DNA of 28,225 nucleotides from a virus, in the IMG/VR virus record IMGVR_UViG_3300025072_000032, positions 1 to 28,225 of that record. One strand, written 5' to 3'. A model generated the notes under the pieces. It was given only the letters and a program-made list of their open reading frames with translations. It ran no database searches and had not been told where the DNA came from. Position numbers and translations under genes: made by a program. Positions 1-27,158 of this stretch are shown piece by piece; the stretch's first letter is position 1, and every line of letters starts with the position of its first letter.

Positions 1-1362
1 AGCCAGATTATCGCCCACGCTGGTGCCGGATACAGCAGCTTCCCAAGCAGGAATTGATCCTGCTCCCGTGCTTGTCAGAACGTGTCCATCAGTAGAAGCT
101 GCCAACTTCTCCAGAAAACCACTGGCATCACGATAGTAAATATCACCTGTTGCATCAGATCCCAATGTCATCGTGCAAGAACCGTCGATCACACCAGACC
201 AAGTACCGGTGGTGATGGTGCCTACAGACGCCAGAGAAGTTGCCGTGGTAATGGAGTTCTGAGTAGCAGTAGAAATGGTCCCTGCGAGTGTCGCTCCTGT
301 AACGGCCCCGTCACTCGTAATGGCTCCATTGGCCTGTATGACGCCAGCAGTGGAGATTGTAACTCCCGTGTCCCCATAGCCGCCGCCAAACGTACCTCCT
401 GCCGTACAAACCAGAGATGCAAGTGTAGCTTCCCCCGTAGTTGCTAATGTAGAACTGGTAGATATGGCACCTGTGATTGTCAGTATCGAACCATCACTCG
501 ACAGATACTCTCCACCACGGTCATAGAAATAGAGCTTGTCAACAACCTTCATATCTCCATCTAGTACATCAAGCGCAGTCTGCCCATCAGTTCCAGTGAT
601 CTGGAGTACTTCTTCAGAAGCATCCCATGTCAGATTATCGCCTGAAGTTGCAGAATGAAAAACTACATCATGGCCTGTGCCATCAGCGCCTACAGTGACA
701 GCGCCTAGGGCTGTGAATGTGGTAGAGGTCAGGGCTGCCGTGGCAAGTGTGCCGCCTGCAATGGTCAGCGTATTGGCAGAATGCGTAGCTGTAACGTCAC
801 CCGAGTCGAAGTTGATCACTGCTCCAGAGTCAAGGAACAAATCGCTGAAATTCAGTGCTGACGTACCCAAGCTGATGTCATCGGTCGTCGTGGGAACAAA
901 CGCCCCGTCAGTGATCTGCACCTGAGACACTGCTGATCCTGCCCCAGCGGCAACGTAGATGTCTACCCTGCCTACCTCTGCACCAGCCGTAGCTGTGGTC
1001 ATAACGAAGTCAAGGAAGGCAAGGTCAGAGACGCCCCCTCCTGCGTCGTCAGCATGAACGCCGAACCTCACACCATCATTAGCCGCAGGCGTCCCAGAGG
1101 CCGGATTTAGGCCCATTTTGAGGCCTACAAGAACACCTTGCCCCGCAGTCCCGATATTCTCCAGGGTCTTCAGACCGGTGATCGTCTGAGATGTAGACTT
1201 GCCGACAATCCCATCAGTCCCCGTGAGATCAACATTGGCTTCATCAATGTTGGTCGCCTCAAGGAACGACATGATGTTGTTGATGTGATCTCTAATAGGC
1301 TCAGCGTCGAGCGGATCACCGGGGTCAGGTAGGCTTTTAGCCGGTCTGGTTACAGTTGCCAT
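1..1362 (-). CDS. Tail-fibre-like virion protein, 3' end outside window
   Basis: The reading frame starts with ATG at 1362, directly after the TAA stop of the preceding gene, and stays open for 454 codons to the left edge, so the C-terminus is missing. The N-terminus reads MATVTRPAKSLPDPGDPLDA. The rest is low in charge and rich in Gly, Thr, Ser, Ala and Val, with repeated beta-type phrases such as TITTGTWSGVIDG, GDIYYRDASGFLEKLA and DGHVLTSTGAGSIPAWEA. These phrases are typical of phage tail-fibre and appendage proteins from environmental tailed phages. The phrase GDNLTWDASEEVLQI occurs mid-protein and GDNLA recurs at the window edge, suggesting a repeated module. It is the last gene visible in the leftward virion operon, a usual place for receptor-binding proteins. 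The fibre role is inference from composition, motifs and position; no enzymatic motif is seen. Confidence 0.75.
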   Translation of the reverse strand, partial: MATVTRPAKSLPDPGDPLDAEPIRDHINNIMSFLEATNIDEANVDLTGTDGIVGKSTSQTITGLKTLENIGTAGQGVLVGLKMGLNPASGTPAANDGVRFGVHADDAGGGVSDLAFLDFVMTTATAGAEVGRVDIYVAAGAGSAVSQVQITDGAFVPTTTDDISLGTSALNFSDLFLDSGAVINFDSGDVTATHSANTLTIAGGTLATAALTSTTFTALGAVTVGADGTGHDVVFHSATSGDNLTWDASEEVLQITGTDGQTALDVLDGDMKVVDKLYFYDRGGEYLSSDGSILTITGAISTSSTLATTGEATLASLVCTAGGTFGGGYGDTGVTISTAGVIQANGAITSDGAVTGATLAGTISTATQNSITTATSLASVGTITTGTWSGVIDGSCTMTLGSDATGDIYYRDASGFLEKLAASTDGHVLTSTGAGSIPAWEAAVSGTSVGDNLA

Positions 1363-16947: not shown

Positions 16948-17183
16948 CCCGGTCCCTTCCAGGGCAGCTTGACCATCTTCTTAGCCATTAGATCCATCTC
17001 CTGCATCCTTGTCTGGATAATACCCACCGCAGCCATGAGGGGCTCCATATCCTTCGTCTGAGGGCGTATCTCCACAGTCCTCTCCATTTCCCCACAAGCA
17101 CACACCCTACGGCGTACCACCCTGTCATCGAGGCTCCACGTAGCCTTCACCCTCATCTTCCTACCACATTCCAGGCAGTTCAT
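16929..17183 (-). CDS. Zinc-ribbon protein, first gene of the late operon (84 aa)
   Basis: MNCLECGRKMRVKATWSLDD followed by RVVRRRVCACGEMERTVEIR is a four-Cys ribbon (C3, C6, C28, C30) much like the N-terminal ribbon of NrdR or the Ogr/Delta class of phage late activators, where VRRRxxC is also found. The C-terminal part is a helix (MAAVGIIQTRMQEMDLMAKKMVKL) with several Met. It is the promoter-proximal gene and a CCCTATAGGG palindrome lies between the promoter and its start, so it may be a late-gene regulator controlling itself. The regulatory role is inference. Confidence 0.7.
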   Translation of the reverse strand: MNCLECGRKMRVKATWSLDDRVVRRRVCACGEMERTVEIRPQTKDMEPLMAAVGIIQTRMQEMDLMAKKMVKLPWKGPGWKSQE

Positions 17184-17184
17184 C

Positions 17185-17278
17185 CCCTATAGGGCTCCCA
17201 ATGCTACATATGAGTATACAACCCGCAGTCACTTTTCTAAATAGGGGGTTATATGCTACCCCTAGCCCTATAATAGGG
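17185..17278. promoter_or_regulatory. CCCTAT/ATAGGG palindromes, candidate operators
   Basis: CCCTATAGGG (17185-17194) is a perfect 10-bp palindrome just before the first late gene and overlaps its ribosome binding region. CCCTATAATAGGG (17266-17278) is the same palindrome with a 3-bp centre. Between them TAGGGG (17242-17247) and CCCCTA (17259-17264) form a further inverted pair next to the -35 region of the candidate late promoter. Further CCCCTAT half-sites lie at 17331 and 17350. The arrangement suggests binding sites for a dimeric regulator. Confidence 0.5.
17213..17241 (-). promoter_or_regulatory. Candidate late-operon promoter
   Basis: Leftward TTTAGA (17241-17236) and TATACT (17218-17213) are 17 bp apart, matching 4/6 and 5/6 of the sigma70 consensus. 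Transcription would start near 17206, about 23 bp before the first late gene. Flanking palindromes fit a regulated promoter. It is the best leftward match found in the hub. Confidence 0.5.
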
Positions 17279-17324
17279 GGCGTAACCCCAGAAATCAAGC
17301 CCTAAATGGAACCATAAAGCAGTG

Positions 17325-17408
17325 TGGGACCCCTATTTCAAGATGGGACCCCTATAATGTGGCGCAAAGTAAGAGAGGGGCATCACAATAAAAAAAAATG
17401 GGACCCAT
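17325..17408 (+). repeat. TGGGACCCCTAT direct repeats with a perfect TATAAT
   Basis: TGGGACCCCTAT occurs at 17325-17336 and 17344-17355 (19 bp apart); ATGGGACCCAT at 17398-17408 is a third, partial copy. The second copy runs into TATAAT (17353-17358). No -35 hexamer is visible at normal spacing, so this may be an activator-dependent rightward promoter or an operator. If it is a promoter, a transcript from here would run through the structured RNA region. Confidence 0.45.
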
Positions 17409-17430
17409 CGGGGGGTCGCTTCCCCGGTGG
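17390..17430 (-). terminator. Possible leftward terminator
   Basis: Read leftward, CGGGG and CCCCG (17426-17409) form a 5-bp stem, ATGGGTCCCAT follows, then nine T residues (17398-17390). The T tract is the longest in the hub. It would stop leftward transcripts coming from the structured RNA region before they reach the late promoter. The stem next to the T tract is short, so strength is uncertain. Confidence 0.4.
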
Positions 17431-17438
17431 CCCAACGT

Positions 17439-17517
17439 GCGCGGATCAACGCGCCTAAAGGGTCGGCCCTCCCTCGTTAGGGGCCAGGCTCACCCTGAGG
17501 GGAGAACAGACTGGCCC
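17439..17517 (+). other. Hairpin series upstream of the structured RNA
   Basis: GCGCG (17439-17443) pairs with CGCGC (17450-17454) around a GATCAA loop, and GGGCCAG (17481-17487) pairs perfectly with CTGGCCC (17511-17517). There is no coding signal here. These may belong to the 5' part of the large RNA or to a separate leader. Confidence 0.4.
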
Positions 17518-17531
17518 TTCTTAGAGGGAAG

Positions 17532-17638
17532 GTTGGCCTTATATAACAGAACACGGTGAAGGAGTCATAAAGGGATAGTTAGGCTCCTTACAGGTGAACG
17601 GGCAGAGTGAGGCTTATAGAGGGAAGGTGAGGCTTATA
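17532..17638. repeat. Degenerate GTGAGGCTTATA repeats
   Basis: GTGAGGCTTATA is exact at 17607-17618 and 17627-17638 (20-bp period). Related copies are GTTGGCCTTATA at 17532-17543 and GTTAGGCT at 17578-17585. Neighbouring words also recur: GAGGGAAGGT (17524 and 17619) and ACAGGTGA. The pattern suggests spaced protein-binding sites such as iterons or operators. No initiator gene lies next to them in the window. Confidence 0.55.
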
Positions 17639-17728
17639 CAGGTGATGATAAGCACCCCCCGAAAAGCCCTGCGCTCTTAGAGGGAGGGCGGTAGTCGGCA
17701 TATACCTATTATAGGCAAAAAAGCCCCC

Positions 17729-17769
17729 TCAGGAATCTCCCTCAGGAATCTCAGGAATCTCAGGAATCT
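17729..17769. repeat. TCAGGAATC tandem repeat
   Basis: TCAGGAATCT occurs at 17729, 17742, 17751 and 17760, the last three in a perfect 9-bp tandem. Just before it lies the palindrome CCTATTATAGG (17705-17715), related to the late-promoter palindromes. Just after it CAGATTT (17781-17787) and AAATCTG (17797-17803) form a hairpin whose loop contains CCTCC, complementary to GGAGG at 17772-17776. Confidence 0.65.
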
Positions 17770-17849
17770 ACGGAGGCGCTCAGATTTCCTCCTCAAAAAT
17801 CTGATACTGCCATTATTGCCGATGTAGTTGTAAACATTGGACTTACGAC

Positions 17850-18477
17850 AGATTCGGGTGATTCCGGTCAGGTGGGGCCGGAATGTCGGCAAAATCTCAA
17901 GTCGGTGTGGCGGAAGGGTTTAGCTCTTGTGGCACGGGTCTTGCGTAGTGTCTTGCCGAAGTCGAACACCACAACATAACCCACTCGCCACAAGGAGCGA
18001 GGACAGCACCACCCGAAACAATCGCTAAGGAGCGCGGGCCGCTTGGAACCGGGTCTGCCCATAGGTAGGAAACAACCTTCGTAGCCTAGGCAGCGGCCTA
18101 GGGGCAACAGCGCAAGCGGACAGTCCTTCCGGCGACATAACGCAGGAAACACTCAAACCACCTCAGTCTTAGTACGACCTTTGTCTCTGATTGCGAGATT
18201 CCCTTTCCCGGCACATCGGGTTGGGGAGGACGGGAGCTTAGGCGCTAGCAAGAGGACGCTAGGGGCCAGTTGGCCGCGATAGCAAGCGGAACACGGTGGG
18301 GAGGGAACCAAGGGAACAGAGACAAGCGGACGGGTAACTGATAAAAGCCTAACTCGTTAGCGGGTCACTCTAGATAGCTAGACTGACATTACCGACTAAC
18401 ACCGCACCCGAGGAGGTAAAAGTCAAACGTTGTCCGTCAAGGTATTAGGGTGACACCGCCAAGCGGGTCACCCTTTT
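17850..18477 (+). ncRNA. Large structured non-coding RNA (candidate giant phage RNA)
   Basis: No plausible gene is present, but many perfect complementary segments are. TTCGGGTG (17853-17860) pairs with 18010-18017 and encloses the hairpin ATTCCGG/CCGGAAT (17861-17884) and an 11-bp stem GCTC-TTGTGGC (17923-17933) with 17987-17998, one G bulged. CCGCTTG (18039-18045) pairs with CAAGCGG (18113-18119), enclosing TGCC/GGCA and the hairpin CCTAGGC-AGCG-GCCTAGG (18085-18102). TTGTCTCTG (18181-18189) and TTCCCTT (18199-18205) pair with the contiguous 18310-18325, enclosing CCCG/CGGG, CTAGC/GCTAG and GGCC/GGCC hairpins. GGTAA (18333-18337) pairs with 18389-18393 around CTAA-CTCG-TTAG and a 9-bp hairpin at 18364-18387. 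Possible pseudoknots: TCGGCAA 17886 with 17953, and CGGAAGG 17911 with 18125. A-rich unpaired segments on this strand and the 3' terminator give the sense. Size and phage setting resemble GOLLD and ROOL RNAs; class membership is untested. The 5' end could lie further left (to about 17400). Confidence 0.75.
18447..18477 (+). terminator. Rho-independent terminator of the structured RNA
   Basis: GGGTGAC (18448-18454) pairs with GTCACCC (18467-18473), and CCGC/GCGG continue the stem around a CAA loop with a single bulged A, giving 11 base pairs. TTTT follows (18474-18477). It marks the 3' end of the rightward large RNA and separates it from the early operon. Confidence 0.9.
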
Positions 18478-18541
18478 CGCATATAACATCTACGGCTGAG
18501 GTGTGCCGAAGCAAGGAAGGAGGTAAGCAGTGAGATTGCAC

Positions 18542-18704
18542 CCGATAGGGCTATCACTATCGGCTAGTGTTTTGGTAAGTGGCGAGTGAGTGAACAATCG
18601 TGCGGTGTATGGACAGGGGGCTACGAAACGGGTGGCCCCCTGTCTCTGTGATACACGACCTGTCAAGTCAGGTGGCCAGAGTTCTAGGTCGGCGTCGTTC
18701 ACTC
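18542..18704 (+). ncRNA. Structured leader RNA of the early operon
   Basis: CCGATAG (18542-18548) pairs with CTATCGG (18557-18563). A second domain is closed by GAGTGAAC (18588-18595) with GTTCACTC (18697-18704). Inside it GTGTAT (18605-18610) pairs with ATACAC (18651-18656), continuing into a perfect 10-bp stem GACAGGGGGC (18612-18621) with 18635-18644, and ACCTG (18658-18662) pairs with CAGGT (18669-18673). The closing stem ends 18 bp before the first early start codon, directly before the GAGAGAGAGAGC ribosome binding region. This could be a cis-acting leader (riboswitch-like, protein-binding or stability element) or a separate small RNA. No known riboswitch class is recognised. Confidence 0.65.
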
Positions 18705-18722
18705 TGAGAGAGAGAGCATACC

Positions 18723-19010
18723 ATGAGCAAGATCAAGGTTCCGAGCCAGGAGTCCGAGTACTACGCAACGCTTGACCAAGCTGCCTTCTACGAGGACGAC
18801 GACGACGACACGGTCTACGTGTCGAATGACGAGTCCGACCTCTACGACCGAGGAGACGAGTCTGACTTGTTGGGCTTCGTGACGACCCCGGTCCCCGCCT
18901 CCTCCATCAGCCAGTGGCAGGACGAGGAATACGCACGGCTCAACGGGCGACCCGACGAGGGTCTCGGCTTCTCCGAGGTGGTCGAGGGCAACCCGAGGCT
19001 GGAGGACTAG
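18723..19010 (+). CDS. Strongly acidic early protein (95 aa)
   Basis: ATG at 18723 with a GAGAGAGAGAG site. It is the first gene after the structured leader. Asp and Glu make up about a quarter of residues, including DDDDD at 25-29 and NDESDLYDRGDESDLLG, with only about six Lys/Arg, giving a net charge near -19. No domain is recognised. Strongly acidic first early products in phages are sometimes DNA mimics or inhibitors of host nucleic-acid enzymes (T7 Ocr is the known example), but there is no sequence match to claim that here. The TAG directly abuts the next ATG. Confidence 0.75.
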   Translation: MSKIKVPSQESEYYATLDQAAFYEDDDDDTVYVSNDESDLYDRGDESDLLGFVTTPVPASSISQWQDEEYARLNGRPDEGLGFSEVVEGNPRLED

Positions 19011-19438: not shown

Positions 19439-19447
19439 GCGGATGGG

Positions 19448-19503
19448 TGGGGGCAGCGACCCCCATTAACGCGCTGTTAGTAAGAGCCCGTCCAAAGTCG
19501 GGC
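19448..19503 (+). other. Two hairpins between early genes
   Basis: TGGGGG (19448-19453) pairs with CCCCCA (19460-19465) around CAGCGA, and GCCCG (19486-19490) pairs with CGGGC (19499-19503). They fill the 82-bp gap before the next gene. No T tract follows, so they are more likely stability, processing or attenuation elements than terminators. Confidence 0.5.
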
Positions 19504-19793: not shown

Positions 19794-20225
19794 ATGAACA
19801 AGATCCTGCAAGACCTCCGTAACCTGTGCGACAGCCTGTTCACCAAGGTGGACAACCTGACGGCTGACAACGACGCCCTGAAGTCCGAGTTGGAGATGAC
19901 CAAGGCCAACTACAAGAGGGAGATGGAGTTCTCAACCGAGTTGTGCGCTGACCTGAAGCTCACCGTGAAACAGCGGGATGAGGCTCTGGGTGACAACAAC
20001 ACGGTGAAGTGGCAGAGGGATACCTTGGCTGGCCTGTTCACCGACGCCGAGGTGAAGGACCGCATCCTGGGCCAGTATCCCGACAAGAAGATCCAGGCCA
20101 TCAAGGCATGGCGGGGCTACACGGGGAAGGGGCTGAAGGAGGCGAAGGCTGACGTTGACCAGTGGTACGAGAGCTACACCAACGATTTGGGTATGCACTG
20201 CCACCGAGTGAAGTATGCCTTCTAA
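19794..20225 (+). CDS. Coiled-coil protein with L7/L12 C-terminal-like motif (143 aa)
   Basis: ATG at 19794 with AAAGGAGAGAGCT. Residues 1-70 form a coiled coil (LRNLCDSLFTKVDNLTADND, LKSELEMTKANYKREMEFST). Residues 98-123 (KKIQAIKAWRGYTGKGLKEA and onward to KADVDQ) match the signature of the ribosomal protein L7/L12 C-terminal domain (KVAVIKAVR-TGLGLKEAKDLVE), including the helix-turn-GLKEAK segment that binds translation factors. The first helix of the domain is recognisable, the last part is divergent. A phage protein of this type could mimic the ribosomal stalk and recruit translation GTPases, or only reuse the fold. Function is inference; the motif is seen directly. Confidence 0.75.
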   Translation: MNKILQDLRNLCDSLFTKVDNLTADNDALKSELEMTKANYKREMEFSTELCADLKLTVKQRDEALGDNNTVKWQRDTLAGLFTDAEVKDRILGQYPDKKIQAIKAWRGYTGKGLKEAKADVDQWYESYTNDLGMHCHRVKYAF

Positions 20226-24146: not shown

Positions 24147-25253
24147 GTGGAAGCACTAAGCATCGCAATTCAGGCACAGGTTCCGGCGCTAGTAGAGGGT
24201 GACCCTGGGGTGGGCAAGACATCGTGGATGTATGCCTTCGCCAAGGCAGTCGGTCGCCATATGGAGGTGGTGATTGCCTCCATTCGTGAGCCGTCTGACT
24301 TCGGTGGACTGCCCGTGTTGGGCAACGGTGAGCCACCCCGTGTGAACCTCGCCCCTCCAGGGTGGGCACAGAGGCTGGCCGAGATGGAGAATGGCATCCT
24401 CTTCATAGATGAGATCAAGACAGCGGCACCGGCTACTCAGGCTGCCCTCCTCAGGGTAACACAGGAGATGGTGGTCGGTGACCTCGACCTGAGTAACACA
24501 GGGCTGTCGGTGGTGGCTGCATGTAACTCCTCAGAGCAGTCGGCTGGAGGGTGGGAGTTGGCACCGCCGATGGCGAACAGGTTCTGCCACCTGTCATGGG
24601 CCGCTGACCCACTGAAGTGGGTGGATGGTATCGTCAACGGCTTCCAGATGGAAGCACCGAAGATCCTGCCTGATGACTGGGAGGATGCTATCCCTGATGC
24701 ACGAGCCAAGGTAGCAGCGTTCATTCGGACTCGCCCTGAGTTGTTCGTCAACGTCCCAGAGAGTGAGGCTCAGGCCGGTGGAGCGTGGCCCTCAGGTAGA
24801 ACATGGGACATGGGAGCGAGGCTGATCGCAGCGGGGGAGAGCGTCAACGCCGATGAGACAGTGACCAACCAGTTGATGATCGGCTGCGTCGGGACTGGCG
24901 CAGGGATGGAGTGCCTCACCTACCTAGAGAACCTCGACCTTCCTGACCCCGAGGAAGTTCTCGCCAAGGCTGACAAGTTCAAGCTGCCGCAACGAGGTGA
25001 CCATCAGTTCGCAGTCCTCTCCAGTGTGGTCAATGCAGTGCTTCGCGACCTCACTGAGGATAGATGGATGGCAGGATGGACAGTGATCGACAAGACCTGT
25101 CAGCAGGGAGCGGCTGACATCGCAGCGGGGGCTGGTCGGAACCTGATGCAGCGGGGTCGAGACGCGAACGCTAACCTGCCGACACCGGCTGCTCAGTTGC
25201 AGCACTTGGTGCCGATCCTCCAAGAGGCAGGTATGCTGCCGAGAGCTAAGTGA
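24147..25253 (+). CDS. MoxR-type AAA+ ATPase (368 aa)
   Basis: GTG start at 24147 with CAAGGAGAACGAA upstream. Walker A is EGDPGVGKTS (17-26), Walker B is ILFIDEI (84-90), sensor 1 is VVAACNSSEQ (122-131, Asn127), and PPMANRF (140-146) contains the arginine-finger position. DFGGLPVLGN after strand 2 and the short N-terminus are typical of the MoxR/RavA branch, which acts as a chaperone with VWA-domain partners. The C-terminal 200 residues are helical. The VWA/HExxH gene lies two genes downstream and is its likely partner. Target in the infected cell unknown. Confidence 0.9.
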   Translation: MEALSIAIQAQVPALVEGDPGVGKTSWMYAFAKAVGRHMEVVIASIREPSDFGGLPVLGNGEPPRVNLAPPGWAQRLAEMENGILFIDEIKTAAPATQAALLRVTQEMVVGDLDLSNTGLSVVAACNSSEQSAGGWELAPPMANRFCHLSWAADPLKWVDGIVNGFQMEAPKILPDDWEDAIPDARAKVAAFIRTRPELFVNVPESEAQAGGAWPSGRTWDMGARLIAAGESVNADETVTNQLMIGCVGTGAGMECLTYLENLDLPDPEEVLAKADKFKLPQRGDHQFAVLSSVVNAVLRDLTEDRWMAGWTVIDKTCQQGAADIAAGAGRNLMQRGRDANANLPTPAAQLQHLVPILQEAGMLPRAK

Positions 25254-25898: not shown

Positions 25899-27158
25899 AT
25901 GGCACTGTCTGATCGTATGCAGGCTGCACGGCTCAAGGCTACGAAGGATCGTCCTTACCTAGCTACTGCACTATGGTCGATGATCCCCGTGGAATCGAAG
26001 GACATGCCGTTCCCGATGGGAGTGGACAGGCATTGGAGACTCTACTACAATCCTGAGTTGATGCACGAGTGGGAGACGCCGACGATGGCCGGGGTCCTGT
26101 ATCATGAGGTATACCACCTACTCAGGGATCACGCTGACAGGGCAGAGGCTATGCACATTGGCCCTGCCAACCACATGGCATGGAACGTAGCTGCTGACGC
26201 AGAGATCAACGATGATCTACTGGGTGAGAGTCTGCCCCTACCTAAGGATTGTGTCACCCCCACCAAGCTGAAGATGCCCGACAACAAGCTGGCTGAGTGG
26301 TATTACAGACAGTTCCCCTCCAAGAACGGAGGAGGAGGGGATGGTGACCCCAGTCAGGGAGGTGGGCAGGCAGGAGAGGGGCTGCCGAAAGAAGGCGAAG
26401 AGTCACCGACCAATGGAGCGGGTGGCTCATGTGCAGATGGACAGACCAAGGAGTGGGAGCAGGGTGAGCCCACCAAGGACGCCCCAGGAACAGGTAAGGG
26501 TAGGCATGATCTGCTCAAGCGCAAGACAGCCGAGGCTATTCGGGAACACGTCAAGAGTCAAGGCTCTGTCCCCGGCCACTGGGAACGGTGGGCCGATGAG
26601 GTGGCCAACCCCAAGGTGCCATGGCAGAAAGAGTTGAGCGCCGACGTTAGGAACGCGGTAGCTTACCAGAAGGGGATGGTTGACTACACCTATCGTAAGC
26701 CGAGCCGTAGGCAGAGCGCCTTCCCTCGCATCATCCAGCCCTCCATGGTGGCACCGATACCGAGGCTGGCTGTGGTGATAGACACATCAGGATCTATGGG
26801 CACTCGTAGGTCAGGCATGGCACTGGGTGAGGTCAAGGGTATCCTGAAGTCGATGGGATGCGGTGAGGCTATGCCGGTCCTGGCCTGTGATGCTGAGGTG
26901 CATGGGGCACAGAAGGTATTCAAGGTGGATCAAGTGAAGCTGACTGGAGGAGGAGGGACAGACATGGGCATTGGTATGAGGGCTGCCGCAGAGTTGAACC
27001 CCCGCCCTGAGATTGTCATCTGTCTCACGGATATGCTGACCCCGTGGCCAGAAGAGAAGCCACCCTATCGGTTCATAGTGGTGGGGTTGGGTGCTGAAGA
27101 GGATGCTCACTGGGCCCCGCCAGCATATGCCAAGACGATCTACGTTCCCGATGAGTAG
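25899..27158 (+). CDS. Metallopeptidase-like/VWA protein (419 aa)
   Basis: The N-terminal domain carries VLYHEVYHLLRDHADR with H69-E70-x2-H73, an intact HExxH zinc motif, then WNVAADAEINDDLL (95-108), the usual third-ligand region of the COG3864 / DUF2201 predicted metallopeptidases. A Gly/Glu-rich linker (about 142-200) leads to a VWA domain with the MIDAS motif VVIDTSGSMG (292-301), GGGTDMG (351-357) and LTDML (377-381). This two-domain layout is known to occur beside MoxR ATPases, as it does here. The pair probably forms a chaperone or remodelling complex. Whether peptidase activity is real is unknown; the motif residues are intact. Confidence 0.88.
   Translation: MALSDRMQAARLKATKDRPYLATALWSMIPVESKDMPFPMGVDRHWRLYYNPELMHEWETPTMAGVLYHEVYHLLRDHADRAEAMHIGPANHMAWNVAADAEINDDLLGESLPLPKDCVTPTKLKMPDNKLAEWYYRQFPSKNGGGGDGDPSQGGGQAGEGLPKEGEESPTNGAGGSCADGQTKEWEQGEPTKDAPGTGKGRHDLLKRKTAEAIREHVKSQGSVPGHWERWADEVANPKVPWQKELSADVRNAVAYQKGMVDYTYRKPSRRQSAFPRIIQPSMVAPIPRLAVVIDTSGSMGTRRSGMALGEVKGILKSMGCGEAMPVLACDAEVHGAQKVFKVDQVKLTGGGGTDMGIGMRAAAELNPRPEIVICLTDMLTPWPEEKPPYRFIVVGLGAEEDAHWAPPAYAKTIYVPDE

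Follow-up and report, generated by a model that had tools for sequence, protein, structure and literature searches.

A large, structured and probably rightward non-coding RNA with a probable attenuator layout in the divergent hub of an uncultured phage

Large structured RNAs of phages are few, and most are without known function. Does the interval between two oppositely directed gene blocks of an uncultured phage encode such an RNA, and what might that RNA do? Here we analyse this interval in IMG/VR record IMGVR_UViG_3300025072_000032, a partial record whose positions 1 to 28,225 make up the window, that is, the whole 28,225-nucleotide stretch under study. The leftward block, which begins at about 17,183, includes the terminase, portal and capsid genes; a rightward set, mostly of genes without known identity, starts at 18,723 with a gene (18723-19010, + strand) for a 95-aa protein of no known family. 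The roughly 1.5 kb between the two blocks (17190-18722) are referred to as the hub, and the structured region sits immediately upstream of the rightward genes. A preliminary description of 17850-18477 had proposed a giant structured RNA free of credible genes, completed by a strong terminator and perhaps a member of GOLLD or ROOL or a new class.

A gene-free hub with two different halves

The claim that 17850-18477 holds no credible gene is borne out. Across the hub, a home-made coding-potential model gave no coding signal except for one doubtful 44-codon ORF (17324-17458), and it detected nothing in 17459-18722; the longest ORF, 94 aa on the minus strand (17868-18152), has no Pfam match. A protein encoded in the region was rejected, this model giving no coding signal there.

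The upstream half (17190-17849, assigned to neither strand) was characterized by repeat search, helix counts and skew. Direct repeats lie within 17519-17774, where TCTTAGAGGGAAGG occurs three times and CTCAGGAAT in tandem. Perfect inverted repeats are in excess in 17190-17850, yet helices containing G-U pairs are enriched on neither strand, and base skews switch at about 17.3 kb. We infer that the repeats of 17190-17849 are probably DNA-level control elements (promoters or operators), with TCTTAGAGGGAAGG and CTCAGGAAT as possible operators or origin elements. A consensus scan found no convincing sigma-70 promoter upstream of the RNA. Two near-identical contigs of the same virus (L002 and L004) both stop inside the hub, at window positions 17389 and 17485, which suggests hard assembly or strain variation there; these ends precede the start of the RNA.

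Together with the divergent gene blocks and the skew switch, the inverted repeats without G-U bias would also fit a control or replication region acting entirely as DNA, in which such repeats serve for protein binding or as structures of an origin and no functional RNA is made. The downstream half bears directly on this alternative.

Helix excess, strand and domains of the RNA

Within 17850-18477, perfect 7-bp helices spanning up to 200 nt number 11 against 4.3 expected (2 of 300 dinucleotide-preserving shuffles), and the corresponding z of 3.1 ranks second among 44 windows of equal size. When the region is stretched past the terminator to about 18650-18722, the signal rises: 17850-18722 contains six perfect helices of at least 9 bp against 1.0 expected (0 of 120 shuffles), with helix z of 4.8, 3.0 and 5.5 at 7, 8 and 9 bp. 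The whole hub holds 14 such helices against 3.4 expected (again 0 of 120), nearly all of them distinct sequences and not one repeated site, and its z values are 5.1, 5.2 and 6.0 at 7, 8 and 9 bp, whereas none of 17 control windows of equal length exceeds 2.9. These helix tests, like the G-U tests that follow, were picked after inspection of the data, and their p-values are therefore optimistic.

Helices containing G-U pairs carry information on strand. On the + strand of 17850-18722, 28 such helices of 9 bp were counted where 12.6 are expected, and 16 of 10 bp where 5.7 are expected (0 of 200 shuffles each), and on the minus strand they are not enriched; in 13 control windows, both strands included, z stays at or below 3.0. 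The core up to the terminator (17846-18477) shows the excess on the + strand only (13 against 5.9; 4 of 200). This bias favours a rightward RNA starting at about 17.85 kb. The large RNA of a related phage (L062, discussed below) also has a strong helix excess, but there the G-U enrichment appears on both strands, and the strand call for the hub is for that reason suggestive.

The one-sided enrichment of G-U pairs, which are meaningless for DNA, argues against a purely DNA-level region, tempered as it is by the two-stranded result in L062. The near absence of repetition among the long helices and the terminator at the end of the region point the same way, and we consider that alternative unlikely.

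We rejected the MFE z-score as proof of structure: it is about -3.8 for the hub RNA, coding windows score alike and reach -4.1, and both strands behave similarly. This lack of distinction from some coding windows, and the want of a homologue among the collections searched, would be expected if the interval were untranslated filler or the remains of a decayed gene, structured only by chance. The helix counts, matched in none of 120 and none of 200 shuffles, the duplicated terminator arm and the complementarity across the terminator (both described below) make such an origin very unlikely.

Of the proposed giant RNA, then, its being large, structured, non-coding and probably rightward stands on the helix excess and the G-U bias, and its end needs revision, since 18477 is too short for a signal that continues to about 18650-18722. 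We conclude that the non-coding RNA is real, has an unusual amount of structure, probably runs rightward and, at about 800 nt, exceeds the region first given.

All the pairs quoted in the preliminary description of 17850-18477 were found in the sequence, and they organize the RNA core (17846-18477, + strand) into three predicted domains. Domain 1 (17853-18017) is closed by TTCGGGTG/CACCCGAA (17853-17860/18010-18017, 8 of 8 pairs) and contains the internal stem CTTGTGGC/GCCACAAG (17926/17987, 8 of 8, with three further pairs across a bulge). Domain 2 (18039-18119) is closed by CCGCTTG/CAAGCGG (18039-18045/18113-18119), all seven pairs being present. In Domain 3 (18181-18325), whose closing stem TTGTCTCTG/CAGAGACAA has a predicted pairing probability of 0.97-0.98, 18181-18189 matches 18317-18325 at nine of nine positions and 18199-18205 matches 18310-18316 at seven of seven. 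The hub holds four copies of the heptamer CAAGCGG (at 18113, 18283, 18323 and 18460); some 7-mer reached four copies in 18 of 1000 shuffles.

Some of these stems have competitors. The closing stem of Domain 1 (17853/18010) competes with 18405-18411 through the pairing 17854/18405, and 18181/18317 is rivalled by 18316/18641, 18316-18324 being also a partner of 18181-18189. The region contains many GGA motifs in a strand that is purine-rich anyway; a CsrA-type sponge was considered.

A terminator, its duplicated arm and pairing beyond it

An intrinsic terminator is present at 18448-18477 (+ strand) as GGGTGAC-a-CCGC-caa-GCGG-GTCACCC-TTTT, a hairpin of 11 bp with one bulge and a CAA loop (-20.3 kcal/mol). 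Its tail has four T only, and hence it was not listed by the consensus scan. The terminator of the preliminary description is thus there, but its role as a simple 3' end of the RNA is doubtful, because one arm is duplicated and long-range complementarity continues past it.

The 3' arm, AGCGGGTCACCCT, recurs 103 nt upstream (18359-18371) with 12 of 13 positions identical, a result obtained in 2 of 2000 shuffles. Among 151 terminator-like sites in the compared loci, five have a comparable upstream arm copy, four of these in two other contigs, so that by this measure chance lies nearer 3%. The near-copy at 18360-18371 (+ strand) is a putative antiterminator strand, predicted to form a 12-bp helix, interrupted by one bulge, with 18447-18459 (-18.6 kcal/mol). 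This pairing is the unconstrained MFE fold of an RNA ending at 18459 or 18462, and for the 18462 end it is the same whether the fold begins at 17840 or 18330. Once complete, the terminator beats the antiterminator by 4-6 kcal/mol, and the full thermodynamic fold assigns them probabilities of 1.0 and 0; any switching must therefore be kinetic or ligand-driven. A putative anti-antiterminator hairpin, GTCAcTCTAGatagCTAGAcTGAC (18364-18387, + strand, -9.8 kcal/mol, inner stem probability 0.99 in the full fold), uses the same strand as the candidate antiterminator. As expected of an attenuator, terminator and antiterminator are mutually exclusive in prediction (18448-18473 against 18360-18371/18447-18459), and the terminator region probably has an attenuator layout and acts as a switch.

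Beyond the terminator, the segment 18488-18656 (+ strand) is complementary to the upstream RNA in five places and closes with a long hairpin (18605-18656). Perfect complements of 9-10 bp between 18478-18722 and the upstream RNA number four against 0.38 expected, with 0 of 1000 shuffles. The five pairings are 17982-17991/18579-18588, 18078-18086/18619-18627, 18316-18324/18641-18649, 18399-18407/18600-18608 and 18156-18172/18488-18506, and several are mutually exclusive with local stems. Such pairings could refold a read-through RNA, or could join the leader in trans to a released RNA of 630 nt.

Our best reading, to which we give a probability of about one half, is that the RNA is a leader of the attenuator type for the rightward operon, about 800 nt long and possibly also the source of a released RNA of about 630 nt. 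The model joins computed features (gene absence, helix excess, + strand bias, the duplicated arm and cross-terminator complementarity) with inferred ones (that the region is transcribed, that transcription terminates, the switch with its trigger, and any role in trans). A + strand leader, from about 17846 to 18656, would head the rightward, probably early, operon, and its extensive folding would decide whether RNA polymerase passes the terminator. During synthesis, 18360-18371 would pair with the 5' arm of the terminator and act as antiterminator; formation of the hairpin at 18364-18387, or refolding when the 3' arm emerges, would allow the terminator to form and the shorter RNA to be released. 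In a read-through RNA, 18488-18649 may pair with the five upstream stretches, either in cis or with released copies in trans, so that the leader refolds ahead of the gene at 18723. If the RNA is such a leader, a large structured phage RNA gains a directly testable job, that of deciding early gene expression.

There are phage precedents for this logic, offered here as analogies and not as relatives: terminated leaders with pairing in cis or in trans. In Gifsy-1, the short terminated IsrK RNA activates its read-through form (PMC4825925), and in P4, CI RNA pairs with seqA and seqC and causes termination (PMC4825925). Like the IsrK leader, the hub RNA is predicted to combine a phage leader and a terminator with short and read-through forms that can pair, alternative structures controlling a phage operon (PMC4825925 for IsrK); unlike IsrK, a small prophage RNA, it is several times longer, has no sequence relation to it and has no regulated protein identified. 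With the P4 leader it would share control of early genes through RNA pairing and premature termination, with several complementary segments per leader (PMC4825925 for P4). The CI RNA, however, belongs to a temperate satellite and is a small antisense RNA made by processing, whereas the complementarity in the hub extends over five segment pairs and no lysogeny genes are known.

The main rival to the attenuator leader is a stand-alone ornate RNA of a new class, similar in kind to GOLLD and ROOL, that ends at 18477, is stable, perhaps assembles into a multimeric particle and exerts no control over downstream genes. About 630 nt of highly structured RNA in a phage setting, with a terminator at its end, is what this rival would predict, and related phages do have another large RNA with compensatory changes in an early operon. 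It leaves the duplicated terminator arm and the complementarity beyond the terminator unexplained, and it finds neither a tRNA island nearby in the window nor an Rfam match. We regard it as possible, though not probable.

Known families, related phages and ribozymes

Membership of GOLLD or ROOL, raised in the preliminary description, finds no support in our searches. With cmscan and Rfam, only a Twister-P5 ribozyme passed the gathering cut-off in the whole window, without GOLLD or ROOL, and at E<10 nothing like GOLLD, ROOL or a phage antisense RNA appeared on either strand of 17180-18730; ARAGORN found no tRNA in the window, which is a partial record. These and other Rfam families are rejected for the hub RNA. 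ROOL and GOLLD both form homo-oligomeric nanocages, and GOLLD expression rises during lysis (PMC12286853). The hub RNA resembles ROOL in being phage-encoded, structured and about 600 nt long (PMC12286853 for ROOL), and differs in having no covariance-model match, no tRNA island in the window and an apparent attenuator at its 3' end. With GOLLD it shares the character of a giant phage RNA, but it gives no covariance-model match even though the 3' region of GOLLD is universally conserved (PMC12286853). GOLLD often lies near tRNA islands, a common and not obligatory association, whereas the window has no tRNA.

Searches for closer relatives were likewise negative. No match to the hub was found by blastn among phage and plasmid records, no DNA homologue in six bacterial genomes, and no relative in IMG/VR and GTDB contig scans with the hub as a pseudo-protein, which detect near-identical DNA only. 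A motif scan of contigs gave no hub relative, its sole new pattern match (in L088) falling in coding sequence, and when the compared loci were searched with a covariance model built from 18150-18338 alone, only that segment and noise came back. Routes through early genes (the proteins at 18723, 22650 and 24147) led to one AAA relative at 43%; the gap near it was rejected as a homologous hub, being coding.

Among terminase relatives, large early-region gaps are common. Three contigs carry a separate large non-coding RNA family on the minus strand between two early genes (L062 2040-1341, L072 4810-3988 and L081 1335-705), with an nhmmer E of about 1e-16 between L062 and L081. In two of its domains, 8 and 6 pairs have changes on both sides, where shuffles give 2.6 and 2.1 (0 of 500 and 1 of 500), really only two lineages being compared. 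The L081 RNA starts with a type II hammerhead, the family is otherwise without Rfam match, and it looks like a new RNA class.

Could the hub RNA be a diverged member of this family? Both are large structured non-coding RNAs of the early region in phages with related terminases, and a GGTTTAGCTCTT-GTGGC stretch is common to the hub, L062 and L072. The same stretch is missing from L081, and a scan of the collection for it gave only L062 with its kin and one coding match. Covariance models of the family's two best conserved domains (R1 and R2) found no hub match in a search of all loci; with filters off, their best matches inside 17850-18722 reach at most 4.6 bits, within noise, and nhmmer and stricter alignment show nothing. 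The hub RNA also differs in position, since theirs is flanked by early genes on both sides and, in L081, has a hammerhead at its 5' end. On these sequence comparisons, membership is scarcely credible. Early z values of 2-2.8 for homology of the hub to the L062/L081 RNA or to a long gap in L018 vanished with stricter scoring, and we rejected both, the former also by covariance models. This L018 gap (about 1880-560, minus strand) exceeds 1.3 kb, has no convincing genes and ends at a Twister-P5, in a position equivalent to the hub; its helix excess is only modest.

The Twister-P5 self-cleaving ribozyme of the window lies between rightward genes (19439-19502, + strand; 41.5 bits in Rfam, gathering 37.6), on the same strand as the hub RNA and about 0.7 kb past the hub. 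Related phages also carry Twister-P5, on the other strand from their terminase: L018, L035 (two copies), L037 (four) and L041. These relatives suggest that the group habitually has large RNAs without kinship to one another, some of them beside self-cleaving ribozymes, which would make the group a good place to seek new RNA classes. The hub RNA may itself represent a new class, at once an early-operon attenuator and the source of a large trans-pairing RNA, and one of several unrelated large RNAs kept with self-cleaving ribozymes in the group's early region; taken as a whole, this proposal is speculative and rather doubtful.

A contig with a related terminase, L006, carries a Betaproteobacteria-1 sRNA (Rfam RF02932) at 191-310 (+ strand). 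Within the rightward operon of the window, a MoxR-like AAA ATPase (24147-25253, + strand) is encoded close to a DUF2201 metallopeptidase/VWA-like protein (25899-27158, + strand), a chaperone-like pair unusual for a phage of this size. The protein encoded at 19794-20225 (+ strand) has a short match, exceeding the Pfam cut-off, to the C-terminal domain of ribosomal protein L7/L12.
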